From NCBI GenBank assembly GCA_002292345.1, contig DBBT01000082.1, positions 1 through 13,062 on the forward strand: DNA of 13,062 nucleotides, read 5' to 3'. This DNA is from Opitutia bacterium UBA977 (GTDB lineage Bacteria; Verrucomicrobiota; Verrucomicrobiia; Opitutales; Coraliomargaritaceae). The first letter of the stretch is position 1. Every line of letters starts with the position of its first letter. A model generated the notes under the pieces. The model did no database searches. It saw only the letters and a list, made by a program, of their open reading frames with translations, and was not told where the DNA came from. Both the position numbers and the translations under genes were made by a program. Positions 1-13,062 of this stretch are shown here, piece by piece.

Positions 1-429
1 GAGGCAGGCTTGATCAAACCCGAAATGCTGCGGTGCGTCCGCTTGACGGCCGAGTTGCCACTTCCCGGCGATGCAGGTGGCATAGCCGCTCTGCTTGAGC
101 AAGTGAGCAAAAGTTGTCTCTCCCCTGTCCAGCACTCCAAACGCGGTATAGTTCCGAACGTTGTACATGCCGGTCATGATTTGGACGCGTGAGGGCGTGC
201 AGAGTGGCTGAGAGTAGCAGTGCTCAAACCGCACACCGGTTGCCGCCAGCTTGTCCAGCACGGGCGTCTGGTATGAAGTCCCGCCGTTGGCACCAATGCA
301 TTCATAGCCGAGATCGTCCGCCATGATCAGAACGATATTGGGGTTTTCTATCTGAGCGTATCCTTCTGGCAGAAGCGCAAACATGCACCCCGCGACAAGT
401 GTGGCTTTTATATAATTAAGTTTATTCAT
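1..429 (-). CDS. Type I sulfatase, N-terminal part only (runs off the window)
   Basis: This is the first 143 codons of a secreted formylglycine sulfatase; the 3' part lies outside the window. ATG is at 429-427, with a weak purine-rich AGAGA upstream, 29 bp after the preceding gene. Residues 1 to about 26 look like a signal peptide ending near GYA/Q. VAGC at residues 12-15 resembles a lipobox, but the hydrophobic stretch before it is short, so a plain Sec signal is more likely. The alkaline-phosphatase-like sulfatase fold follows: a metal-binding ADD motif near residues 36-38, then CTPSR with Cys77 as the residue converted to formylglycine, then a GKWQLG segment close to the edge. CTPSR fits the standard C-x-P-x-R maturation signature. 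The substrate cannot be judged from this much sequence. Family assignment is firm; it is the last visible gene of the downstream block. Confidence 0.93.
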
Positions 430-458
430 ATAGTCTCTATTTGTATTCGGTGCCTGTG

Positions 459-2816
459 CTAACGCGTCCTGTTCTGCGGGATCGCCTTCAGTAACTTGTT
501 CGAATAGAAAACACCGATCACGCGCGTCTGCTTTCCCTTCAGGGTAGGAAAGTGTCCGCCGGGATTTCCATCGTGGTCTCTCATGTTTGCTGTGATGACA
601 TATCTGCCTAGCTCGGGGATGTAGGCAATGTCCGGATCCTGGATGCGGTGGTTGTCCCAATCATCCACTTCATCCGAGCGCGGGGTGATCGCTTTGCCCA
701 CATACTCGAAGGGCGTATTGATATTTTTGGATCGCCAGGCCACGACCTTGTAGGGGCTGCCCTTTGATTCCCGGTCGCAGAAGATGTAATAGTGTCCCTC
801 GATCTTGGCGATTGTTGCGTCACCCACGCCATATTTGTGCCCTCCGTCGGGGTTGGGATCGACGGCTTTGGCGTTGACCAATTTCCAATCGCCTAGACCC
901 GTAGTGGAAGTGAAGTGAGCCAGGCTGGTGCCATCCGGCCCGTGCGGGAAATCGCCATGTTCGCCGAACATGTGGAATACCCCGTCTTCGACATAGATGC
1001 CGATGTCATCGCATTGCTTGTGAGGAAAGGTGCCAGCTGCTTTCCATTTCCCGCTGGCTTGCTCGAGTGGCCCTGAGTAGGTGTAAACGATCCCTTCTTC
1101 ATAGAGATAGTAGGTGCCATCGACCTTCACTCCATCATCGTACTCGTAGTGTTTCCCGATCTTGTATTGGTCAGAAACGAGTTCCCAGTCGTCGCTGCTC
1201 CACGAGAATTTCTTGGCTCGCCACAGATGGGCGGCTTCGGCCGTGTGGCTGATGATCAAGTGGTAAGGGTATTCCAGATCCGGATCGACGAAGAGAACGG
1301 AGTCATGGTTATTGCCAAAGGTTGTCGTAAAGACCGGATTGTCGACCGGACGCTTCCAATCCAGAGGGTCAAACGTTGTTGTTTCTTTTTTTGCGGCCTC
1401 ACTGGCCTCAAATGATTTGTGTCCGGTTGAGTCCTTGCCGAGGATCGGATGAGCGTTTTCAGGTATCATAGCCCTGTGCTTTTCAATCAGTGTTGCCAGC
1501 TTCGGGTTCTCAATCAGGTTCTTCCACTCGTGGGGGTCACCTGCGTGGTCATAAAACTCCTCCGAGCCGTCGTTGTAATGGATGTAGCGGTATCGCTCAG
1601 AAACGATTGAGTAGTTTCCGGGGCCGAAGCTGGTGCGCGCCATATGCGGCCAATCTGCCTGCGGATTTTTCAGCAGTGGCACGAGTGAATACCCCTCGAG
1701 TTTGGGGTCGGCTTTCAATCCGGACAGTTCCAGCAGTGTTGGATAGATATCGAGCAACTGTGCCGGCTTTGAGCACACCTTACCTTTAACAAGTCCCGGC
1801 CCGGCAATGATCATCGGCGTGCGGGTTCCGTCTTCCCACAAACTGCGCTTGGCAAAGCGCTCCTTCTCGCCCTGGTGAAAACCGTGGTCGGTGTAGAGGA
1901 CGATGAAGGTGTTGTCTTTGTACGGGCTGTTGTCCAAAGCATCGAGCAGTTTACCCACCTGATGATCGGTGAAGCTGATGCAGGCAAGATAGGACTGAAC
2001 GAGTGGTTTCCATTGATCGTTTTTTTCAACCCACTCCATGGTCGGCGCGACATGCTTGAGGCGGGTCAGGTTGACTCCGTATTCTGGAATATCCTTCAAA
2101 TCGTCTGCTATCACCTTGGGTAGTTGCAGTGTTTCTATCGGATACATATCGAACCATTTCTGCGGTGCAAATTGTGGCACGTGCGGGGTGTAGAAGCCCG
2201 TCGCCAGAAACAGCGGCTTATCCTGTTGCTTAGCCAGTTGCTGAACACCCCACTCGGCTATTTTATGATCCGTCATCAACTCATCTTTTTCTGGGAACAC
2301 GCCCCAGTCCCATATCTTTCCGCCGGGAAACGAAGTGATTTTCTTCTCGGGCAAAGGCCCAAACCCGCCAAATGATCCTGCATAATTTGGCATGTGGTTT
2401 TTATTTTGATTTCCATGAAAGAGCTTGCCGGCACCTGTTACATGATAGCCATCATCTTGAAAACGCTTGGGCAACAAGGTGTTTTTCTTTGCGACCGGCG
2501 ACCGACTGAGATCAGGAGTCAGAAAGTAAACCCCGGTGGTGCTCGGATAGAGCGAGGTCATCATGCTGGCGCGTGAGGGGTTGCAGACCGGCGACTGGCA
2601 GTGGGCATTATTGAACAGCACCCCGCGCGCGGCGAGTCGATCGATATGCGGCGTCTTCGCCTGCGGATGCCCGCCCATGCAGCCGATCCAGTCATTGAGA
2701 TCGTCAATCGCAATCAGCAACACATTCGGGTGCGCCGGAGTCTTTGCCGTGGCATGGGTCAACGACACGCCACTGATGAGAGCGAGAGCTATCAATATCT
2801 TTTTATTTTTCATCAT
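459..2816 (-). CDS. Two-domain secreted enzyme: iduronate-2-sulfatase-like sulfatase fused to a five-bladed beta-propeller glycoside hydrolase-like domain
   Basis: The protein has 785 residues. Residues 1-24 are a signal peptide ([10 protein letters not shown]...ATA). Residues about 29-440 form a sulfatase domain with IDDLND metal ligands (D38, D39), CNPSR with Cys78 as the formylglycine precursor, and a late YTDHG segment; the style resembles iduronate-2-sulfatase-type (SulfAtlas S1_7-like) enzymes. After a charged linker (about 445-480), residues about 482-785 contain five similar beta-strand units. Each begins with an acidic or HD/DD motif (H504-D505, D560-D561, D603-D604, D666, D727/D729) and is followed by a G-x-Y-Y-type strand. 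This is the pattern of a GH43/GH117-type five-bladed propeller. It would desulfate a glycan and hydrolyse a terminal sugar in one polypeptide; that is inference, and the propeller could be only a binding module. The ATG overlaps the stop of the upstream small gene by one base (TAATG). ATG codons 1 and 2 are both possible starts. Confidence 0.92.
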
Positions 2817-3301
2817 TATTTCTCTGATTGATTGAGATCGAATTTAACAGAGCCTTCGATAAGATGGCGTTGCGGCACGGCGAGGTTCGCAAGGAACGCA
2901 CTGACGACTTCGGGGCCGCCTTGCTGCGCTTCCTCCCACTGGGCGCGTAGCTCATCCTCCGGGGTGTCCCTCCAGACGTGCACCCAGAGTATCTCGGGGG
3001 ACGTCCTGTTCTTTTCATAGATCCACTCGGCCATTACGTTGCCCTTCCGGAGGAAGGCGCGCTCCGTGCGCCCACTGGCACCCCGATTGCCGCCTTTAAC
3101 GTAGCTCCAACCCTCCCTGCGTAGTGTCTCGACAGCACGCTCGATCAGGTCATGCGCGTCGTTACCCGCATAGCGCCAGAATGCTTCTCCCTCTCGTCCA
3201 ATCCGAGAGCCCGCGAAGGTGGGCTCCGGGGCAAGTGCTTCGAAGCCGAAGCCTCCTGCCAGGAGTAGCGTGGAGATACAGAGTGTTTTGCTAACATTCA
3301 T
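2816..3301 (-). CDS. Small secreted protein of unknown function (161 aa)
   Basis: I do not recognise this family. The N-terminus (MNVSKTLCISTLLLAGG...) looks like a signal peptide, with possible cleavage around residues 24-30. The mature part of about 130 residues is charged and rich in Arg, Glu and Trp, with predicted helical stretches (IERAVETLRREGW; EDELRAQWEEAQ) and a WVHVW strand; it has no Cys pair and no catalytic motif I can name. The gene starts 17 bp after the stop of the upstream sulfatase. Its stop codon shares one base with the ATG of the downstream sulfatase-propeller gene (TAATG), a layout typical of translational coupling. It is therefore almost certainly expressed with the two sulfatases. 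A partner, chaperone or binding protein for one of them is a guess from context only. The frame is open throughout, and the competing frames show no better candidate. Confidence 0.8.
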   Translation of the reverse strand: MNVSKTLCISTLLLAGGFGFEALAPEPTFAGSRIGREGEAFWRYAGNDAHDLIERAVETLRREGWSYVKGGNRGASGRTERAFLRKGNVMAEWIYEKNRTSPEILWVHVWRDTPEDELRAQWEEAQQGGPEVVSAFLANLAVPQRHLIEGSVKFDLNQSEK

Positions 3302-3318
3302 TATCTATTTGCTCGATT

Positions 3319-4836
3319 CTAGCGTCGCCGGACACTCCGTTTCTCACGCTTGTATTGCTCTAAAAGTGCGGTGAGTGCTTTAACCACCTCAGGGTGCTGG
3401 CTGGCCACATTCGTTGTTTCTCCGGGATCCCCCTGCATATCATACAACTGCGGAGTTAGATCCGATTTGTAAGGGTGCCCCAATCCCGATGTCGCTTTGG
3501 TCAAGAGCTTCCACTTGCCTTTCCGTATGGCAAAGTTACCCCCAAAGTCGTGGTGAACCACTCCTTGACGCATGGACGTATCGATGGCTTCACCGCGCAG
3601 TGCGGGCAAAAAGCTGAGACTGTCTTCACCGGCATTCCTGGGCAACGGCTCTGCTACGATCGCTGCACAGGTAGCCAATAGATCTGTCAGGCAAATCGTT
3701 TGGTCATTCTGTGTCCGCGGCTTGATGGTTTCCGGCCATCGCACCAAGAATGGCACACGGTGTCCGCCGTCAAAGGTTCCACCTTTGTAACCTCTGTAGT
3801 TCGCGCTCGGGAAATGTCCTTCCTCCTCGAATTGCTTGACGCCGATGTAGTAAGCACAGCCATTATCTGCCGTAAAAATCACCAGGGTGTTATCGCTTAA
3901 TCCGCGTTCCTCTAGAGCGGCCAGGACTTGGCCCACGGTATCATCGACTTCTATGCAGAAATCTGCGTACTTACCCAGCTTGCCCTCCAGCTTGCTTTTG
4001 CCCTGGAACGGTTTGGACGGCGCGATCGGTGTGTGCGGCGCATTCAATGAGAAATAGAGGAAGAAGGGCTGATTCTTATCCTGCGCTTTAATGTACGATA
4101 CGGCCTCTTGAGTGAACGCAGGCAGAAAGTGTTCGGGCTCCAGGTCTTTGTCGGCAAGTCCGATTCGTCGACCGAAGGTTTTCTTTGCTACCGTTGGAAT
4201 GCTGACGGCCTTGTCGTTCTTGAGGAAGATATAGGGTGGCATATCGAGTGACGCATTGATGCCGAAGAAATAGTCAAAGCCCATGTCCACAGGGCCATTT
4301 TTGAACGGCTTAGCGAAGTCAACGTCAGCCTCATCCTCGGTGATCTCCCCCGGTTTGGATTGACTTGCCCAATCCAGCCCCAGGTGCCATTTGCCGACCA
4401 TCCCTGTGTTGTAGCCATTTTCTTTAAGATAAGAAGCCACGTTGAGCTGGGAAGGTTTCATCAAGCTGTTATCATAATTCCATAACACGGCCCGCTTTAG
4501 GCGCGTACGCCAACAATAGCGACCAGTCAAAATTCCATACCGCGTCGGGGTGCAAACAGAGGATCCGGAATGGGCATCGGTAAAATTCATCCCTTCACTT
4601 GCGAGACGGTCAATGCTTGGGGTTTGAATCTTTGATTCCGGATTTAGGGCGCTGACATCGCCGTAGCCCATATCGTCCGCCAGAATATAGACAATATTCG
4701 GCAACGTGCCTGTTCTATCCTTTGCGCTAGCGGTATACCCTGAAAATACCAAGAGTACGACTACGATGCTAATTGATCTTATATAATTACGGTGTTTCAT
4801 TTTATTCTGTGTTGTCGAGGGTCCACCAAATTTCAT
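3319..4836 (-). CDS. Secreted type I sulfatase (arylsulfatase A / GalNAc-6-sulfatase-like)
   Basis: This is a full-length sulfatase of 505 residues from the chosen start. The reading frame is open to a TTG at 4860, but the ATG at 4836-4834 has a GGGAGG Shine-Dalgarno sequence on the minus strand (4854-4849), so I prefer it. The next ATG (4800) would give a shorter, cleaner signal peptide and stays possible. Numbered from 4836: hydrophobic signal core about 19-36 with cleavage near ASA/K (38/39); LADDMGYGD with metal ligands D54 and D55; CTPTR with Cys95 as the formylglycine precursor; then TGRYCWRT, GKWHLGLDW, a NAPHTP segment, FTADNG and a C-terminal GKWKLL subdomain. The pattern resembles galactose/GalNAc-6-O-sulfatases, so 6-O-desulfation of a galactose-type residue is plausible but unproven. 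It sits 121 bp after the GH141-like gene and 17 bp before the small secreted protein. Confidence 0.93.
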   Translation of the reverse strand: MKFGGPSTTQNKMKHRNYIRSISIVVVLLVFSGYTASAKDRTGTLPNIVYILADDMGYGDVSALNPESKIQTPSIDRLASEGMNFTDAHSGSSVCTPTRYGILTGRYCWRTRLKRAVLWNYDNSLMKPSQLNVASYLKENGYNTGMVGKWHLGLDWASQSKPGEITEDEADVDFAKPFKNGPVDMGFDYFFGINASLDMPPYIFLKNDKAVSIPTVAKKTFGRRIGLADKDLEPEHFLPAFTQEAVSYIKAQDKNQPFFLYFSLNAPHTPIAPSKPFQGKSKLEGKLGKYADFCIEVDDTVGQVLAALEERGLSDNTLVIFTADNGCAYYIGVKQFEEEGHFPSANYRGYKGGTFDGGHRVPFLVRWPETIKPRTQNDQTICLTDLLATCAAIVAEPLPRNAGEDSLSFLPALRGEAIDTSMRQGVVHHDFGGNFAIRKGKWKLLTKATSGLGHPYKSDLTPQLYDMQGDPGETTNVASQHPEVVKALTALLEQYKREKRSVRRR

Positions 4837-4848
4837 GATCTGCTTTGT

Positions 4849-4854
4849 CCTCCC
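4849..4854 (-). promoter_or_regulatory. Ribosome binding site deciding the start of the CTPTR sulfatase
   Basis: On the minus strand GGGAGG lies 12 nt before the ATG at 4836. It falls inside the reading frame extended to the TTG at 4860, which argues that the extension is not translated. The spacer is a little long, so the site is a good rather than ideal match. Confidence 0.5.
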
Positions 4855-4957
4855 GCTCAATAGCTTATTACTTCCCTAGAGTAACATAACACCCTCCCCT
4901 GCGTAATCACGTGAACACCCGATGATGTACACCAAATAAAGCCCGAGAGCGGTTTGT

Positions 4958-7198
4958 TCACAAATTCAATTCGTTGCTGTCTTTTTTGCGTTTCTTTTTT
5001 CCGCCCTCTTTCGCCGTGCTCTTAAAGAGCATCGAAGAGTCAGACATGAAACGCGCCAGAAACGGATCCCGCAAGGTCCCCATTTTCCCAACGATATCCA
5101 GCGACAAGGGTTTCATTCCCAGCTTGAGCGCAGGCGATCCGGTTTTGAAACTGAAGTCCCCATGAACCGGATCCACAAACAGCGGATCGCTGGCCAGACT
5201 GTGATGGTCCGCTAACGCTGTTTTGTTACGCGCACGTTGTTTCATTAACAGTGATTCCCCGACCCCCGGCGCATTATGGTAGTAGAGATTATAATCCAGC
5301 CCGGCACCCACGCTATCGATACCGTAGTGAAAGCCATCGGATACCGAGCCACTGACGACATAGAATATATTGCGCGACAGATCCGACTCTGGATCGACGG
5401 TGTTGCCCGCCCGCCCTGTCAGTAGTTGGCTATTGACGAACACATTTCCTGTGGCGGTATTCAGCCCCTTGATGGTGATCCCCTGATTCCCCGTAGTGCC
5501 AAACAGAAGGTTGCCTTGAACCGTGGCACCATGGCTATCATCGTCGGTACGAATCATCGCCCCCTCCGGATGGTTATACGTCACGTTATGCCGAACGATG
5601 TTGCCATCGCCATTGGCTGACAGATAGATGCAGTTTCCATCGTGTAGTAACTTCAGGCAGTCATGCACTTCATTAAACTCAATCAGGTTTCCCCGCGCAT
5701 GCATGTACGGCTCATACGCGGACCAGGCCTTGATGTCGGCGAGTGTAATCTCGTCCCAGCGAATCGTGGGAATATGCTCGCGCGTCCCTTCAGGAAATTT
5801 CCATTTGGCGAACGGATTGGCCTGACCCGTCTTTTTAAAAACGGGGGCAAAGAAACGGCGACGCACGCCTGCGATCACGATGCCGGTGTAAGCCTGATCG
5901 TAGACATGATTATGAGAGATCCGGTTATGCCCGCTCTGCCAGACAAAGATCCCCGGCGAATGTAGAAACAACTGCCCCACCCGGGTAATCTCATTGTTGT
6001 GGATGGTATTGCCTTTGTTGACATCCTTTTTGCCCGGCCCATAGCCGCACAACAGGATTCCGGTGCCGCCGAGATCCCTAAACGTGGAGCCCTCCACCGT
6101 GATTTCCTGACAAAACAGATCAAGCCGCACACCGTCGCTGCCGCTGTCGAAAAAAGTGCAGTTCCGGACGGCGCAATTGCGGGCGCCCCGAAAGCGAATC
6201 AACCCGTTCGCCTTGTCCCACATGTTCCAGTCGTGCTGAATCCCCTGGTCTTCCGGCAACCACTTCTGGCGATCTGCGTGAGCAAACCGAAGCCCGCTGA
6301 AAACAATGCCCTCGACAGGCCGGTCCTTCTTCCCGGCAACGGAAGCATCGTTCACGCCTTCCACCCGGATCAGCTCATCCAGCGCCGGGGCAATTACCTG
6401 ATCGCCCGGCGTGCCCGATTCCGGCCAGTAATAGAGGATGCCTTCCTGCGCATTGAGCGCCCATTCACCCGGCTGATCCAGATCATCGACCCGGTTTTCC
6501 AGAACAAACGATCCACCCATACGGTATGTGGCCGGAACCGTCAGCCGGGCCCGTTTTTTCTCCGGGTCGACCGAGGCGATCCCCAGGTAATTGACCAACC
6601 ACGCCCGAGTGGGCTGGCCGTATAGCTCCAGATCCTCCAGATTTTTACAGGGCTTGAGCACATCGCCCGTATAGGAAAACTCCAGCCGATGCTTAAGCTC
6701 GCCCGCATACATGCTTCTGGGCGCATCCACGTTCACACGAATCTCTTCAGACTGCGCCCGCTGCAAAAGCGTACTGCCATCGTAGAGACAATGGAAGAAG
6801 GCATCCCCCTTCGCCCACGGGACCTTCGCCTTCCAGACCTTGCCGCTCTGCAGGTCGGATTGTTGCCAGTTTTTGATGACACGACCGCCGCTGATCAAGG
6901 GACTCGCGCCCTCGGCCGCACGGTAGCGCGTCACCGCGCCCTCGGGTGCAGAATCCTCCGGCCCGAAGACCAGCGTTTGGTCCAGCGTATAAACCCCGTC
7001 CTGAATCACGACATCGATATCGCCCTTTTCACCTGCGGCCCGCAATGCCCGCACGGCATCACGAGCCTCTGGTAGCGAGTCAACCGTTCCGCCAGGCGAC
7101 ACTATAATCGTTTGGGCTGACAAGGCCTGAGCCGTCATGTCCAAAACGGAGATGCAGGCGACAGCACATAGGGCGGTCCTAAGGATTTGCTTTTTCAC
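4958..7198 (-). CDS. GH141-like right-handed parallel beta-helix glycoside hydrolase
   Basis: This secreted protein has 746 residues. Residues 1-28 are a signal peptide (MKKQILRTALCAV...LSA). The mature start has the layout of this family: an IIVSPGG strand, an EARDAVRALR helix, DVVIQDGVYTL and SGGRVIKNWQQ. From about residue 280 to 640 it becomes a repetitive beta-helix with many N-x-F/I-x-N rungs, including GNTIHNNEITRVG, SPGIFVWQSGHNRISHNHVY and an RTDDDSHG turn (D552-D554). GH141 members are known as alpha-L-fucosidase (from RG-II degradation) and xylanase, so release of fucose from a side chain or from fucoidan-like material is plausible here; I cannot map the catalytic residues. The start is GTG, overlapping the stop of an upstream 74-codon ORF by 4 bases, with no clear Shine-Dalgarno sequence. 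The last 22 residues are an unusual Lys-rich tail (GGKKKRKKD). Confidence 0.88.
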   Translation of the reverse strand: MKKQILRTALCAVACISVLDMTAQALSAQTIIVSPGGTVDSLPEARDAVRALRAAGEKGDIDVVIQDGVYTLDQTLVFGPEDSAPEGAVTRYRAAEGASPLISGGRVIKNWQQSDLQSGKVWKAKVPWAKGDAFFHCLYDGSTLLQRAQSEEIRVNVDAPRSMYAGELKHRLEFSYTGDVLKPCKNLEDLELYGQPTRAWLVNYLGIASVDPEKKRARLTVPATYRMGGSFVLENRVDDLDQPGEWALNAQEGILYYWPESGTPGDQVIAPALDELIRVEGVNDASVAGKKDRPVEGIVFSGLRFAHADRQKWLPEDQGIQHDWNMWDKANGLIRFRGARNCAVRNCTFFDSGSDGVRLDLFCQEITVEGSTFRDLGGTGILLCGYGPGKKDVNKGNTIHNNEITRVGQLFLHSPGIFVWQSGHNRISHNHVYDQAYTGIVIAGVRRRFFAPVFKKTGQANPFAKWKFPEGTREHIPTIRWDEITLADIKAWSAYEPYMHARGNLIEFNEVHDCLKLLHDGNCIYLSANGDGNIVRHNVTYNHPEGAMIRTDDDSHGATVQGNLLFGTTGNQGITIKGLNTATGNVFVNSQLLTGRAGNTVDPESDLSRNIFYVVSGSVSDGFHYGIDSVGAGLDYNLYYHNAPGVGESLLMKQRARNKTALADHHSLASDPLFVDPVHGDFSFKTGSPALKLGMKPLSLDIVGKMGTLRDPFLARFMSDSSMLFKSTAKEGGKKKRKKDSNELNL

Positions 7199-7419
7199 GT
7201 TATCTTTATTTCGTAAGGATGAAGGCCAGTCACACCCATTCGTCCAGAGTTTGGCATAGTCTGGTTGAGTTGCTCTGCCAATGCTTTGAGTTCGGATTCA
7301 GACTCATCCGCTGCGTCGCCGCCCAAAACCGACGACTTGTGTGGAGTCTCTTTGAGCCAATGCCGGTTCAAATAAACCGCACCGGTATGATACGGCTGAC
7401 GAATATTATTTTTGATCAC
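7195..7419 (-). CDS. Unrecognised 74-codon ORF coupled to the GH141-like gene
   Basis: I do not recognise this product. It starts at GTG 7419-7417 (a purine-rich AGAGAG lies about 9 nt upstream) and ends in TGA, forming a GTGA overlap with the start of the GH141-like gene. It has no signal peptide or membrane segment. The middle is acidic and likely helical (DAADESESELKALAEQL). The frame also stays open upstream of the GTG, through the 3' end of the preceding metallo-beta-lactamase remnant, so it may be the tail of a larger lost gene rather than a real small protein. The overlap could let its translation feed ribosomes to the GTG start of the GH141-like gene, which lacks an obvious ribosome binding site. 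Coding status is uncertain. Confidence 0.4.
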   Translation of the reverse strand: MIKNNIRQPYHTGAVYLNRHWLKETPHKSSVLGGDAADESESELKALAEQLNQTMPNSGRMGVTGLHPYEIKIT

Positions 7420-7451
7420 GTCTAAGGGTCTCTCTATTTTGTTCAGACTGT

Positions 7452-7844
7452 TTAGCTCAGCACGACGGACATACCGTCATAGGCAGGGATAAGACCTTCC
7501 GGTAGGAGCGTTTGCTCCATCTCTGCATGGGGGGGCTGCAGTTTTCGTGCGATATGGGTGAGAATGATTTTTGCATCAGGTTTCAGTACCTTTCCTTTCA
7601 CAAGGGAATGGTTCATGTGGCGAATCATGCTCATGTCGTTATGGCTGAAAATTCGAGGATCTCCCGCTCCTTCGCCACAGGTGGCGTCCCAGATAATGGC
7701 ATCGAGTCGCTTTTTACGGAGAGTGTTCCATGTGTTTGCCAGTAGCCAGGAACCGTCTGTCGCGTAGAGCCGCCTCAGGGTGCTACCGGTGTGGAGTTCG
7801 CCATCGATGCGCGACGCGAGTTGAGCAAAAGGAATGTGATTCAT
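7452..7844 (-). pseudogene. Remnant of a metallo-beta-lactamase-fold hydrolase (PhnP-like), C-terminal part
   Basis: The readable product (130 residues from ATG 7844) matches only the C-terminal half of an MBL-fold hydrolase. Visible are YATDGSWL, the DAIIWDATCGEG strand with its Asp, an FSHNDM segment, ILTHIARKLQPPHAEME and the terminal PAYDGMSVVL. The N-terminal metal-binding T-H-x-H-x-D-H half is missing. The frame is closed by TAA at 7880-7878, only 12 codons above the ATG. Compared with the family as I know it, the stretch between IDGE and YATDGSW also looks about 20 residues short, which suggests an internal deletion. It is out of character in a sulfatase locus and is best read as a broken passenger gene; a shortened, still expressed protein cannot be excluded. 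It lies 96 bp after the 504-residue sulfatase and 32 bp before the 74-codon ORF. Confidence 0.72.
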
Positions 7845-7861
7845 GAAGACTGTGTCGATTG

Positions 7862-7884
7862 ATCCTAAAAAGAGTAGTTAGGAT
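7862..7884. repeat. Perfect 7-bp inverted repeat with 9-bp loop
   Basis: ATCCTAA (7862-7868) and TTAGGAT (7878-7884) are exact inverted copies around a 9-base loop, between the end of the 504-residue sulfatase gene and the truncated metallo-beta-lactamase remnant. On the transcribed strand it could form a small AT-rich hairpin. There is no T-run after it in the direction of transcription, so it is not a convincing intrinsic terminator. An operator half-site pair, an attenuating hairpin or a rearrangement scar are all possible. Confidence 0.35.
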
Positions 7885-7940
7885 AATGGCGACTGCACGA
7901 TCCCCGACCGGATTTGTCCGTGGGTATATTTTTCGGCGTT

Positions 7941-9455
7941 CTATTTATTTTTCTGATGCTGCTTGGATACCGCCTCAGGGTAGGCGTCCAGATAGCGCTC
8001 CATGCGCTCTTTCATCCTATTCAGCACAGACGCATACTCAGGGTTGGCAGCCAGATTGATCAGCTCTGTCGGATCCTTTTTCAAATCGTAGAGACATTCA
8101 TAAGGACCGCCGTCTTCTTCATAGTAGGAGGCATATTTATAGCGTTCACTGCGCACGGCATACCAGTTATTGAAATGATAGAATTTATGTTCTGCGAAGA
8201 TATCTTTGCGCCAGCCTGCCGGGGCGTCACCGGCCATAAGCGGCAAAAGAGAATGCCCCTGATAGACCTCTGGAATTTCAACGCCACCAAAGTCGACAAA
8301 GGTTGCCGGCAAATCGACGTTACTGACCAGCTCGCTGACCACTCGACCACGCTGTGCGTTGGGCAGCCTGGGATCATAGACAATCAGCGGTATACGTAAG
8401 GACTGCTCGTAGTGATTCCACTTACCAGCGGTACGACGATCTCCCCTCATATAGCCGTTATCGGCGGAGTAAACAATGATTGTGTTCTGATCAAGCCCCT
8501 TTGCTTTCAGCTCTTGGAGAACCCTTGCAATGGCGTGATCAATACCGGTAATCATGCGATAATACGCGCGGATATTGATCTGGTATTTTTCCGGGGTATC
8601 CCACCGCCAGAAGTATCGCTCATAATTGAGATTTCTCTTTTCTCTGAGAAAGCTCGGCAGTGCCTTAAAATAGCGCTCATCCCCAAGTTCCGGCCCGGGT
8701 ATTTCCACATCTTCGTACAGTCCGTCAGCCGATTCCGGCCATTGGAAATGGTAGCCCGGTCGATGATCTCCGTCCTCAGCATGGGTCGCGTTAAAACTGA
8801 CCGACATACAGAACGGTTTTTCAGCCGGATTTGATTTGATGAATTCGATCGCGGCATCCGCACACAGATCAGTCTCATGACGCAGCGTGCCATCCTGCTG
8901 CTTCTTAAGAAATGGATTACGCCCGATCTCCTGCATAAAATCAAATTCATGTTTCAACCCCGGCCCCCCAAATCGCATGCCGTATTTCCCAGCAAAACCA
9001 ATCCGGTAACCGGCGCCCTTGAGCCTCATCGGATAGCTACTGGCGATAAACTTAGAGGGCACCGGTAACTCACCAAAATTATAACCATGCGTACGCTGTG
9101 TCAGTCCGGAGAACAGCGTCGCACGACTCGCCGCACAGATAGGCACTTCGCAAAAGGCATTTTCAAAGCGAATGCCTTGCGTCGCCAGGCGATCCAAGGT
9201 CGGGGTCTGAATGATCGTATTACCAGCGCAGCCGAGCACATCGTTGCGTTGATCATCCGCTAAGAAAAAGATGATGTTTGGTTTTTCTTCGGCGGCAACC
9301 CGCCCCGCGAGCAAGCCCAAAATGGAGGTTCCTAAAACAAACATCCGCAACCATCCAGCCAATTTGGCTTTCGACGCCGGACGCAGACTCCGCCCGCGCG
9401 GATCGGCTTTCGCATTGGAGTGATCGATGTTATCGACCGCTATAAATTGTTTCAT
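7941..9455 (-). CDS. Secreted type I sulfatase with a C-A-A-S-R active-site motif
   Basis: This is an intact sulfatase of 504 residues. The ATG at 9455 is preceded by a near-perfect ribosome binding site (AAGGAGGG, 7-nt spacer). The N-terminus is odd: about 37 polar and basic residues come before the hydrophobic core (about 38-52), with cleavage likely at VAA/EE (55). LADDQRND gives the metal-binding aspartates. CAASR follows with Cys107 as the formylglycine precursor; Ala replaces the usual Pro of C-x-P-x-R, a variant known in this superfamily. The usual GKWHLG is FAGKYGM. Later come SFNATHAEDG, YSADNGYMRGDRR and a C-terminal SERYKYASYY subdomain with YDLKKDPTE. Substrate is unknown; the general architecture resembles heparan N-/iduronate-type or choline-type sulfatases. 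The gene is flanked by a sulfatase fragment on the 5' side and a truncated hydrolase on the 3' side, so it may have been inserted into or rearranged within the locus. Confidence 0.93.
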   Translation of the reverse strand: MKQFIAVDNIDHSNAKADPRGRSLRPASKAKLAGWLRMFVLGTSILGLLAGRVAAEEKPNIIFFLADDQRNDVLGCAGNTIIQTPTLDRLATQGIRFENAFCEVPICAASRATLFSGLTQRTHGYNFGELPVPSKFIASSYPMRLKGAGYRIGFAGKYGMRFGGPGLKHEFDFMQEIGRNPFLKKQQDGTLRHETDLCADAAIEFIKSNPAEKPFCMSVSFNATHAEDGDHRPGYHFQWPESADGLYEDVEIPGPELGDERYFKALPSFLREKRNLNYERYFWRWDTPEKYQINIRAYYRMITGIDHAIARVLQELKAKGLDQNTIIVYSADNGYMRGDRRTAGKWNHYEQSLRIPLIVYDPRLPNAQRGRVVSELVSNVDLPATFVDFGGVEIPEVYQGHSLLPLMAGDAPAGWRKDIFAEHKFYHFNNWYAVRSERYKYASYYEEDGGPYECLYDLKKDPTELINLAANPEYASVLNRMKERMERYLDAYPEAVSKQHQKNK

Positions 9456-9598
9456 TTCTTTACCCTCCTTTGTATCATTGTCGCTCTAAATTCGTATTCA
9501 GAGTGCATAGTTGCCCTAGTTTCAGCTCCAGCGCAACCAGTGAATTCCAGTCGAGCTTGGATCGCATTTAAAGCCGGTCAGTTCCGAATGGCACTCAC
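9456..9598. other. Intergenic stretch with no gene, upstream of the CAASR sulfatase
   Basis: Apart from the ribosome binding site at its left end I see no gene here: the minus-strand frames are interrupted and show no family motif. It must carry the 5' leader of the sulfatase and perhaps its promoter, but I find no convincing -35/-10 pair. It begins right where the similarity of the upstream sulfatase fragment ends, so it may be an element that replaced the rest of that gene. Confidence 0.4.
9463..9470 (-). promoter_or_regulatory. Strong ribosome binding site of the CAASR sulfatase
   Basis: AAGGAGGG on the minus strand, 7 nt before the ATG at 9455. It is the best Shine-Dalgarno match in the window and supports the long N-terminal extension as genuinely translated. 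Confidence 0.75.
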
Positions 9599-9778
9599 TT
9601 AAGGATCGTTGCCGAGAGTACCAACGTGGGTGGGGCGGGATTTGGCTTCTTTTTTCCCAAGCAGAATTTCGAAGATGTCTTTTCCGTCAATGATCCGGTC
9701 CGTTGAAAGGCGGTAGTTGCTAAGCTTTGCAAACGTGGAAAGCGCATGCGAGCACGTCACAGGTTTTCCAGTCGTCAT
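9599..9778 (-). pseudogene. Fragment of a sulfatase gene (C-terminal region)
   Basis: A 59-codon frame (ATG 9778 to TAA 9599) encodes a piece recognisable as the region just after the catalytic core of arylsulfatase-A-type enzymes: ALSTFAKLSNYRLSTDRIID then GKDIFEILLGKKEAKS. In intact relatives this corresponds to the 'PTLAxLAG...DRxIDGxDxxPLLxG' block. The N-terminal two thirds, with the formylglycine motif, are absent. The frame is open upstream only to the TAA of the GH20 gene (9805-9803), and after KEAKS the sequence no longer looks like a sulfatase. It is therefore a relic, in the same orientation as its neighbours, left by a deletion or recombination between two sulfatase genes or by insertion of new DNA. 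It cannot be an active enzyme. Confidence 0.7.
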
Positions 9779-9802
9779 ACTGATGGCATTGGACGAGCCA
9801 AC

Positions 9803-11419
9803 TTACTCGCTTTTGCGATGAACTCCCAGCAGATCCAGGCGCCGATAAAACGTGGAAAGGCGGACGGAGAAGTCGTCAAAGTTCCGCCTCTCTCTTGACG
9901 ACCACCCTGTCTCGGCAATAGCGCACAGACGTGGGAACGATTGCATATCCACTCGTCGAATGCTCGGAGTTCCCTCTCCCCACATGTTGCCCTGAATTCC
10001 CAGGATGTACTTTTCGTCCTCCGCCGACAGCTCGGCTGGTACCGGCTCATAATCATAGGTGCGCTTCAGAGAAAGCCCATTGTCGAGGTAATAATCCGGA
10101 AAGATCGAGATGACTAGGTTTCGCTTCTGACTCACCGCGCCGACAATTGCGTGCGGACTACGCCAGACCATCATTACTGCGCGACTTTCTCTTTGCAGTC
10201 CGCTCTCGATGATCTCGTCCCAGCCAACCATCCTGCGCCCCTTAGAAGCCAGAGACTTGTCGACCTTGCGGACGAACTGGCCCTGCAGAAGACCGACGTC
10301 TTTGTGGAAGGCAGTTCCCGCCTTACGATCCACTTTCACGCGAAATGGGTTAACATCATCGGGAAGTTTCTCGCCTGCGAGCCTTTCCATATTCGTTGTG
10401 CATCGCGGGCATTTACGCCAATGCTCGGCGGGAACTTCATCTGCACCGACATGAATGTAGGGAGATGGAAACAAGGCGATAACCTCGTCCAGAACATCTG
10501 TGACATACTCGAACGTTGAGTCCTTTGAGACGCACAGGGGGGCACTCCAGCCTTCTACGGGTTTGCCCGTGCACCCCAGTTCAGGATATGCTCTGATGGC
10601 CGCGCCACTGTGCCCGGGCATTTCGATCTCAGGCACAACCGTGACATGCCTGCTCGTCGCGTATGCCACGACTTCCTTGATGTCTGCTTGCGAGTAGAAC
10701 CAACCGTCGCCTGATTTGCGGCTGTGATTCGACCGAGAACCCACTTCGGTCAGCTTGGGATACTTCTTGATCTCGATCCGCCATCCCTGGTCGTCGGTCA
10801 GATGGAGTTGGAGGATGTTCAATTTCTGGAGCGCCATTAGATCGATATAGCGCTTCAAGTCCTCCTTCGTTAGAAAGTGCCGGGCCGGATCCAACATATA
10901 ACCGCGCCACTTGAATCGTGGCCGATCCTCAATCGACACGCTGGGGACGATCCATTTCCGTCCTTCGACTGTCTGCCGCCCCTCGATCTCTGGTGGAAGC
11001 AATTGACGCAGGGTCTGGACACCGTAGAAGACCCCGCTGGGGTTCGCTGCGGTAATCGTGACGCCCTTTGGCGTGCAATGCAGCAAATAGCCCTCCTCGC
11101 CCAAATCCACCCGGGAATCGTCAAGTTTCAGAACGACTCCCCCAGAAGGCATAGACCTCGGCGACGTGACCTTCAGGTTGAGTCCGGTTGCGGGCCTTAG
11201 AAGTTCAGCCAAATATTGGGCCGTGGCCTTGAGTTTGTCTGACCTCGCATAAATGACCGTACGTTCTGTCAGCTGATACCCGCCATCCAAATACTCCGCT
11301 CTCTGGGGTCTCGGAATGATCTGACAAGGGGCCTGCTTGCCTGCCTCAACCGCTATCAGCGGGCCCTGTCCGGCCAGAAATATCCCGCCCATTAGTAAGC
11401 TTGCTATTGCGTTTTTCAT
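9803..11419 (-). CDS. GH20 beta-N-acetylhexosaminidase
   Basis: This is a full-length secreted exo-enzyme of 538 residues that removes terminal beta-linked GlcNAc or GalNAc. The frame reaches a TTG at 11440, but ATG 11419 has AGAGG 9 nt upstream and begins a clean signal peptide (MKNAIASLLMGG...), so I start there. An N-terminal GH20b-type alpha/beta domain (about 30-155) precedes the TIM-barrel domain, which opens with RPRFKWRGYMLDPARHF. Diagnostic motifs follow: LHLTDDQGWRIEIKKYP (about 203-219), PEIEMPGHSGAA, and HVGADEVP with the catalytic pair D327-E328, where Asp orients the substrate acetamido group and Glu is the general acid. The C-terminal GNMWGE and WSS segments line the active site. 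It lies 17 bp after the esterase gene and is surely co-transcribed with it. Its presence points to a HexNAc-containing substrate. Confidence 0.96.
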   Translation of the reverse strand: MKNAIASLLMGGIFLAGQGPLIAVEAGKQAPCQIIPRPQRAEYLDGGYQLTERTVIYARSDKLKATAQYLAELLRPATGLNLKVTSPRSMPSGGVVLKLDDSRVDLGEEGYLLHCTPKGVTITAANPSGVFYGVQTLRQLLPPEIEGRQTVEGRKWIVPSVSIEDRPRFKWRGYMLDPARHFLTKEDLKRYIDLMALQKLNILQLHLTDDQGWRIEIKKYPKLTEVGSRSNHSRKSGDGWFYSQADIKEVVAYATSRHVTVVPEIEMPGHSGAAIRAYPELGCTGKPVEGWSAPLCVSKDSTFEYVTDVLDEVIALFPSPYIHVGADEVPAEHWRKCPRCTTNMERLAGEKLPDDVNPFRVKVDRKAGTAFHKDVGLLQGQFVRKVDKSLASKGRRMVGWDEIIESGLQRESRAVMMVWRSPHAIVGAVSQKRNLVISIFPDYYLDNGLSLKRTYDYEPVPAELSAEDEKYILGIQGNMWGEGTPSIRRVDMQSFPRLCAIAETGWSSRERRNFDDFSVRLSTFYRRLDLLGVHRKSE

Positions 11420-11428
11420 GTTCTCTTT

Positions 11429-11433
11429 CCTCT
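11429..11433 (-). promoter_or_regulatory. Ribosome binding site supporting the GH20 start
   Basis: AGAGG on the minus strand, 9 nt before ATG 11419, in the 17-bp gap after the esterase stop codon. It favours this ATG over the TTG at 11440, which would overlap the esterase gene's end. Confidence 0.5.
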
Positions 11434-11436
11434 CTT

Positions 11437-13023
11437 TCAATTTTTGTGATGTCTATAAAACGGTGCGGCAGGCAAGCCTGCGGTATTAAACAAGGTGGAG
11501 GGCGGATTGTTGGCCCAAGCGTACCGAATGGCGACGGGCTGCTCTACACCTGTTGCGCTTAAGTTTATTGTATTCCCCTTCAAAACTGCGCTTGCGGGAA
11601 TGAATCGTGCGTCCTCTCCGGCCAGTTCGAACCCACTTGGCCCATCTTTTTTCAGCACCAGCTGTTGAGCACAGCCGCCCGGATCAAAATGAACTGCCAC
11701 CATTTTATCACTAAATCCGACATGACCAAGCTGAGGCCCCGCGGCGACAATTTTCTTTCCGTATACCTTTTTTAAGGCAACGAGTGCCAGACGCCGCCCC
11801 ACATCCTGTTTGTTGGGCGGATGACCATTCTGCGCCATGCCGATATCGATACCAACCGCCATCCCCGTATTTGGGACAGTGCCCGCAACAGTTTGCTGAG
11901 CAGAACGCAAGGCTGCAAAATCCCACGGTCTTTGGTTCGGAGGAATTTCCTGGTTAACCAACTGCATCAGTAAAAACGGGAAGTCTCCCTGCTTCCAGTG
12001 ACTGCGCCAGCCACGAATCAGTTTTTTCATCAAACCGGCGTATGCAGACGCATAACTTGCGTTGCTTTCTCCCTGATACCAGATCACCCCCTTGATCGTC
12101 ATGGGGGTTAGCGGAAGAATCCGCGATGAAAACAACCGGCCAGCACCCAACGTTGACTGTGCCCACTGCATGCGGTCCATATCCGGAATGCTGTAAGTCG
12201 ATTCCGGGCACTTCGGAAGTGCCCCCCCTAGCGCCTTGGCCTCTTTCAGCTCCTTTTGCCAGCCTGTCATGAGTTGCTGATGTTTGATTTGTAAAGGCAG
12301 CAACTGTTCTACGATCCGCTTGGCGTCATCCGTGGATGCAGCAAACTCAGGAGTGCCATCGAGTTCTGTACGCGGCGTCCATAACTGCGCCATCGTGCCT
12401 CCAACGGCAGCCTGAACCAGGCCGACGGGAACATTCAGGTGTTTATGCAGCTCCCGTCCAAAGAAATACCCTGCAGCGGAAAATGATTTCGTATTGTCAG
12501 GCGTACAGAGCTTCCAGCCTCCTGTTTTCAAGTCGAGCAGGCGGATCTGTGGGTGTTTTGCCGCTGAAACCTCCTTCTTCCAATTAAGGACTCCCCCAAA
12601 TGACGGGCGGGGTTCCAGAGGCATCTCCATATTGGACTGCCCGGAACAGATCCAGACGTCTCCTGCAAGAAGGTTGGTAAGCCGAATCCTATTCTTTCCC
12701 TGAAAAACAAGATCCGGGAGAACTCCGGCTTTCTGTGCCGGAAGCATAACGACCCATGGCGTCTTTTCTCCTGCGCCAACCGTTTTGCCTACAACGCTAT
12801 CACCAAGGTTGACAACGACGGCCTCACCCGCATCAGCCCAACCGCTAAGCCGCACCGGCACGTCCCGCTGCAGCACCATATTTGATGTAAGAAAGGGAGC
12901 CAGCTTAACGGCAGCCTCCAGGGAGTTTCCACACAGAAACACAGCCGCAACAACAATGAACCCACTGCGAAACAGAGATCCCCCGCTCACACTGTTTTTT
13001 ACCCTGAAGTGATTACGCTCCAT
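11437..13023 (-). CDS. Sialate O-acetylesterase-family (SASA) secreted esterase
   Basis: The protein has 528 residues and the SGNH-hydrolase fold; the family removes O-acetyl groups from sugars such as sialic acids or plant and algal polysaccharides. Residues about 1-38 are a signal peptide with a basic n-region (core SGFIVVAAVFLCG). A beta-sandwich start follows ([21 protein letters not shown]), then GDVWICSGQSNMEMPL with the nucleophile Ser130, the AAVGGT oxyanion block, GVIWYQGESNA, and a final NGHPPNKQDVGRRLA block with the catalytic His401. The Asp often found two residues before this His is Asn399 here. It is the first gene fully contained in the window on the transcribed strand, 17 bp before GH20. 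In this setting de-acetylation of a sulfated glycan is the likely role; true sialate specificity is not implied. ATG 13023 is followed at once by the signal peptide; only a weak AAGAGG precedes it. Confidence 0.94.
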   Translation of the reverse strand: MERNHFRVKNSVSGGSLFRSGFIVVAAVFLCGNSLEAAVKLAPFLTSNMVLQRDVPVRLSGWADAGEAVVVNLGDSVVGKTVGAGEKTPWVVMLPAQKAGVLPDLVFQGKNRIRLTNLLAGDVWICSGQSNMEMPLEPRPSFGGVLNWKKEVSAAKHPQIRLLDLKTGGWKLCTPDNTKSFSAAGYFFGRELHKHLNVPVGLVQAAVGGTMAQLWTPRTELDGTPEFAASTDDAKRIVEQLLPLQIKHQQLMTGWQKELKEAKALGGALPKCPESTYSIPDMDRMQWAQSTLGAGRLFSSRILPLTPMTIKGVIWYQGESNASYASAYAGLMKKLIRGWRSHWKQGDFPFLLMQLVNQEIPPNQRPWDFAALRSAQQTVAGTVPNTGMAVGIDIGMAQNGHPPNKQDVGRRLALVALKKVYGKKIVAAGPQLGHVGFSDKMVAVHFDPGGCAQQLVLKKDGPSGFELAGEDARFIPASAVLKGNTINLSATGVEQPVAIRYAWANNPPSTLFNTAGLPAAPFYRHHKN

Positions 13024-13062
13024 TATTTCATCCCAACCTCTTCATTGGTAAGCGCGTAAAGG

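Follow-up and report, generated by a model that had tools for sequence, protein, structure and literature searches.

A sulfatase followed in one protein by a predicted five-bladed propeller suggests a two-enzyme fusion for sulfated glycans in Opitutia bacterium UBA977

The window analysed here is a stretch of 13,062 nucleotides (contig DBBT01000082.1, positions 1 to 13,062 of the forward strand) from the verrucomicrobial genome of Opitutia bacterium UBA977. A single frame in it encodes a sulfatase followed by a predicted five-bladed propeller, and we consider with moderate confidence that its product is an exported two-enzyme fusion within a sulfated-glycan degradation cluster, in which an S1_7-like sulfatase is paired with a propeller glycosidase acting on the exposed linkage. 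The proposal draws on the sulfatase residues and Pfam matches, the fold model, a weak GH43 signal, invariant acidic residues, sulfatase genes beside related propellers, a relative (locus L011) with the same frame, and published sequential fusions. The fused gene is laid out as follows, in window positions.

459..2816, minus strand: fused gene, sulfatase then propeller, 785 amino acids, from the ATG at 2816 to the stop, with 0 internal stops
1473..2729, minus strand: sulfatase domain, residues 30-448 (PF00884, 164.5 bits; SGSH_C, 60.4 bits)
2571..2585, minus strand: formylglycine motif C78-N-P-S-R82
1380..1472, minus strand: linker, residues 449-479, from the last Pfam match to the first confidently modelled propeller residue
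486..1379, minus strand: five-bladed propeller, residues 480-777 (fold matches span model residues 8-305)
1302..1304, minus strand: D505, blade 1
1134..1139, minus strand: D560/D561, blade 2
1005..1010, minus strand: D603/D604, blade 3
819..821, minus strand: D666, blade 4
630..638, minus strand: D727 and D729, blade 5

A formylglycine sulfatase (family S1) is expected to carry a C/S-x-P/A-x-R motif and a metal-binding pair of aspartates, and the fusion has C78NPSR82, the metal-binding D38/D39 and D310/H311. The PF00884 match (cut-off 25 bits) covers residues 30-366, and SGSH_C covers residues 316-448. D38/D39, K131, H134, H212, D310/H311 and K323 align to human iduronate-2-sulfatase (IDS), and most of them also to PDB entry 6HHM. 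These two are the nearest PDB relatives of the fused sulfatase (6HHM, P18_S1_7, E 1.3e-56; then IDS, E 6.4e-39). The former is an ulvan 2-sulfo-xylose sulfatase (PMC9096561; cited, like all papers here, from excerpts), and IDS is also assigned to S1_7 (PMC6388578). The residues matching IDS and 6HHM indicate that the fused sulfatase is complete and S1_7-like, the subfamily being taken from its nearest PDB relatives. A sequence-only reading of this DNA had likewise called it a complete, iduronate-2-sulfatase-like module. The first ~24 residues of the fusion resemble a signal peptide by eye, and on this evidence the protein would be exported. The two-domain frame did not arise by chance, as L011 preserves it with 85% identity across 767 residues.

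Downstream of the linker, the same reading had placed a propeller of five blades, each led by acidic residues. From an alignment of 26 rows, AlphaFold2 models this part with 19 strands, a mean predicted local distance difference test score (pLDDT) of 86.5 and a predicted template modelling score (pTM) of 0.88; the model from the single propeller sequence was useless (pLDDT 40). The PDB matches listed for the 19-strand model are five-bladed propeller enzymes, and model and fold search agree with the predicted architecture and with the five-bladed fold of GH43. GH32 enzymes are also five-bladed propellers, and the fold matches listed include BT1760, a levanase of GH32 type. A viral fold library returned mostly unnamed or other propeller-like proteins (E 4e-9 and weaker). 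A sequence search of the PDB with the propeller gave one chance match (E 0.51), a profile search of the PDB gave none, and no propeller relatives were found in the viral collection.

Conservation was counted over 24 of the 26 rows, each longer than 250 residues; the two excluded are pieces from one genome (G989). Among these 24 near-full-length members, 16 are standalone frames, four are sulfatase fusions (the window, L010, L011 and L012), two follow a LamG domain (L027, L041), one follows ~350 residues without a Pfam match (L037), and one (L034, 307-2412) comes, within a single frame, after a metallophosphoesterase of calcineurin-like type (PF00149, 46.3 bits). The standalone members (L013-L026, L035, L036) are 333-375 residues long, with starts that look signal-like by eye. 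At L034, an S1_7-like sulfatase frame lies beside the fusion on the opposite strand.

Had all acidic active-site residues been lost throughout the family, the propeller would be reduced to a binding module. The opposite was seen, since all eight aspartates of blades 1 to 5 lie where the sequence-only reading had placed them and each is Asp in 24/24 members. H504, H524, E558, E573, H615, E619, H634, D681 and E683 are invariant as well. A non-catalytic carbohydrate-binding or scaffold module might be expected to change partners, as the propeller does in four of the 24 members (L034, L027, L041 and L037); even so, we find such a module improbable, given that the eight acids never vary, nor do numerous further polar positions, and that 16 members are standalone frames, as would be more fitting for an enzyme.

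Functional partners are expected to be separate neighbours in some genomes and a single chain in others, and this is the pattern observed. At 12 of the 14 standalone loci L013-L026, the fetched stretch holds at least one sulfatase-like frame, compared with 2.4 expected from gene density, a figure that assumes random gene placement though sulfatase genes cluster and that uses per-genome counts at E up to 1e-15. Four of these 14 loci (L020, L022, L024 and L025) have a neighbour that shares 41-47% identity with the fused sulfatase.

Under the two-enzyme proposal, C78 would be converted to formylglycine, activating the N-terminal S1_7-like sulfatase, which would then take a sulfate ester off the glycan. 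The C-terminal propeller, as a glycosidase of a family without a name in Pfam or NCBIfam, would hydrolyse the linkage exposed by desulfation or an adjacent one, and both steps would occur outside the cytoplasm. The invariant acids are predicted at the head of the inner blade strands, with D505, D603/604 and D666 the likeliest catalytic residues. We infer the hydrolysis itself, the order of the steps, the acid and base roles and the substrate; fusions described in the literature make it plausible that desulfation is coupled to removal of the sugar.

Several observations, concerning first the chemistry of the propeller and then the fusion, weigh against this proposal. PF04616 (GH43) scores 14.7 bits on the propeller, below its cut-off of 32.2. 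When blade 4 is compared by eye with the standard GH43 stretch EGPHIYKRNGYYYL of L080, G665 stands opposite the general-acid Glu of GH43. In the fold search, the propeller ties with a phosphorylase and a deacetylase. Alongside this tie stands the alternative that the propeller performs other chemistry (as a deacetylase, phosphorylase, lyase or dehydratase) on a glycan shared with the sulfatase. We regard this as unlikely, because a weak GH43 profile signal recurs, below threshold, in 8 of the 26 members (E threshold 10; lowest E 0.0014) and also in a sister family. Phosphorylases are as a rule intracellular, and the propeller proteins look exported.

Membership of GH43 or GH117, which the sequence-only reading had suggested, is not supported in that form. 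In addition to the low PF04616 score, HHalign gave a probability of 35.3% against standard GH43 with nine rows (one of them, L100, in the wrong frame) and 19.5% with the other eight, 16.7% against six rows labelled GH117-like from a motif, 0.4% against a second GH43-like set of four rows and 5.6% against a mixed set of six. No GH117 structure is named among the 50 fold matches listed, which excludes nothing. Of the catalytic Asp-Asp-Glu triad of GH43, D505 and D603/604 are invariant, and G665 takes the place of the Glu with D666 adjoining it, as judged by eye; this suggests that the general acid of the propeller may differ from that of GH43. Against nine proteins of the sister family, HHalign gave 97.3% (E 1.8e-11, covering blades 3 to 5). 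This family consists of ~500-residue propeller-like proteins (L105, L031, L038-L040 and L061-L065), several of them beside sulfatases; L105 belongs to the UBA977 genome itself (G000:C21), and the GH43 signal of the family is weak (20.1 bits, cut-off 32.2). Together, the propeller and its sister family seem to make up a GH43-type propeller branch that has no name. A bolder and more doubtful possibility is that the two constitute a novel glycoside hydrolase family whose catalytic set differs from the GH43 triad and which is specialised on a sulfated sugar unlocked by the fused S1_7-like sulfatase.

As regards the fusion, the sulfatase part is damaged in two of the four fused copies. The formylglycine motif of L010 (around 1030) is absent, with TGA in its place, and in L012 (2162-2515) sulfatase residues 378-472 alone were recovered. 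Intact copies are those of the window and of L011, the latter up to its contig end. At L015 and L016, two of the 14 standalone loci, BLAST with the fused sulfatase found no sulfatase in the fetched stretch, and no second propeller copy was found in the UBA977 genome, where it is single. The damaged copies would be expected if the fusion were incidental, with domains that work independently and gain nothing from being joined. Pointing the same way are the 16 of 24 members without a fused sulfatase, the lower conservation of the sulfatase (72-81%) than of the propeller (88-91%) in L010 and L011, and the tree, on which the fused label requires two changes (mean 3.8 with shuffled labels) and one change in only 12% of bootstrap trees. 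However, L010 and L012 lie on short metagenome contigs, so that decay and assembly error are indistinguishable there; the window and L011 hold both domains alike; sulfatases recur next to separate copies; and a single origin of the fusion may be compatible with the starred branches of the tree. An incidental fusion is, in our judgement, very unlikely.

The fused gene has a sulfatase-rich setting. Nine frames of the window are on the minus strand, and the gaps between them, from the acetylesterase to the cut sulfatase, are -4, 347, 96, 253, 97, 17, -1 and 29 bases. The eight frames other than the fusion are the following.

11437..13023, minus strand: SASA-type acetylesterase (PF03629, 75.2 bits)
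9803..11440, minus strand: GH20 hexosaminidase (PF00728, 324 bits)
7941..9455, minus strand: S1_25-like sulfatase (PDB 6hr5, P36_S1_25, E 2.9e-107)
7452-7844, minus strand: 130-amino-acid frame, no Pfam match
4958..7198, minus strand: beta-helix protein, GH141-like (PDB 9rx2, E 2e-125; GH141_M, 22.5 bits, below the cut-off of 27)
3319..4860, minus strand: S1_15-like sulfatase (PDB 6s20, E 2.6e-80; 9bas, 'S1_15A sulfatase', E 1.1e-67)
2816..3301, minus strand: 161-amino-acid frame, no Pfam match, overlapping the fusion start by 1 base
1..429, minus strand: start of a further sulfatase, truncated at the contig end (ATG at 429; 43% identity with the fused sulfatase over its residues 27-98)

The S1_15- and S1_25-like sulfatases, the GH141-like protein and the GH20 hexosaminidase would fit a sulfated glycan containing fucose, rhamnose or hexosamine. 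Clusters combining S1_7 sulfatases and GH141 have been reported in marine Verrucomicrobiota (PMC8857213).

Sulfatase-glycosidase fusions are an established type, and here both domains stand in one frame in more than one genome (the window and L011, with L010 and L012 damaged). P36_S1_25_GH78 of Formosa agariphila, which acts on ulvan, combines sulfatase and glycosidase in one protein for consecutive steps (PMC8511951). The UBA977 protein likewise joins a sulfatase to a predicted glycosidase, but its sulfatase is S1_7-like where that of the Formosa protein is S1_25, and its propeller without a family name stands in the place of GH78. Kiritimatiellales S1_7 sulfatases carry GH32 or GH10 domains (SCARR_04167, PDESU_06089 and SCARR_04194), and an S1_15 gene carries a GH29 domain (PMC6388578). 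These S1_7 fusions share a subfamily with the UBA977 sulfatase by nearest relatives, the comparison being one of descriptions, whereas Pfam gives no GH32 match for the UBA977 propeller. Hits to GH43 and GH117 domains within planctomycete sulfatases (PMC4807772) likewise place similarity to propeller glycosidases in one protein with a sulfatase, although the families are named there and the GH43 match is below cut-off here. In PbSulf1-GH195 of Polaribacter, sulfatase and glycosidase domains act one after the other within one protein (PMC13063451); the pairing is alike, but it is of S1_51 and GH195, with other folds and another substrate. Identity to GH43 enzymes (e.g. 3qz4, 1uv4 and 4qqs) is 10-16% in the GH43 fold-match rows.

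No description of a UBA977-type propeller was found in the open-licence literature searched. What looks new is the propeller partner, which has no named family in Pfam or NCBIfam, although CAZy may already number it. Algal glycans that carry sulfate are resistant to decay, and a good many enzymes for opening them still lack an assignment. The propeller family is small, strongly conserved and associated with sulfatases, which makes it a manageable place to look for a new activity; the fusion in turn points to the sulfatase with which the propeller should be paired in tests of activity.

Among 387 genomes sampled from the phylum, 2 have full-length-type copies, UBA977 being one of them (a third match, in G243, is short). 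The same holds for 2 of 384 genomes of a class sample (a third, in G277, is short), for 7 of 288 genomes of one order (11 matched, 4 by a short stretch) and for 1 of 345 genomes from the class around L013, where 3 of the 4 matching genomes have short stretches. The G243 match (68 residues, E 3.4e-4) lies in a protein that is GH32-like by eye, and a GH32 assignment from it was set aside as the match is too short. L014 and L017 carry proteobacterial labels, yet they are metagenome bins. The nearest relatives are in family f10, and the domain occurs in 0 of the 8 other genomes listed for UBA977's own family. Misbinning of the window contig was considered; its guanine-plus-cytosine content is 0.533, and nine other stretches of the assembly span 0.507-0.55.

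Further sulfatase frames were seen in the same genome. Those at L071 (845-4948) and L072 (2-3847, minus strand) are very long (1368 amino acids for the first and, within the fetched stretch, 1282 for the second), and Pfam gives no match for the C-terminal ~600 residues of either at an E threshold of 1e-4. L073 (3-3146, minus strand) encodes another sulfatase fusion, in which the further domains are of F5/8 type and of GDSL lipase/esterase type.
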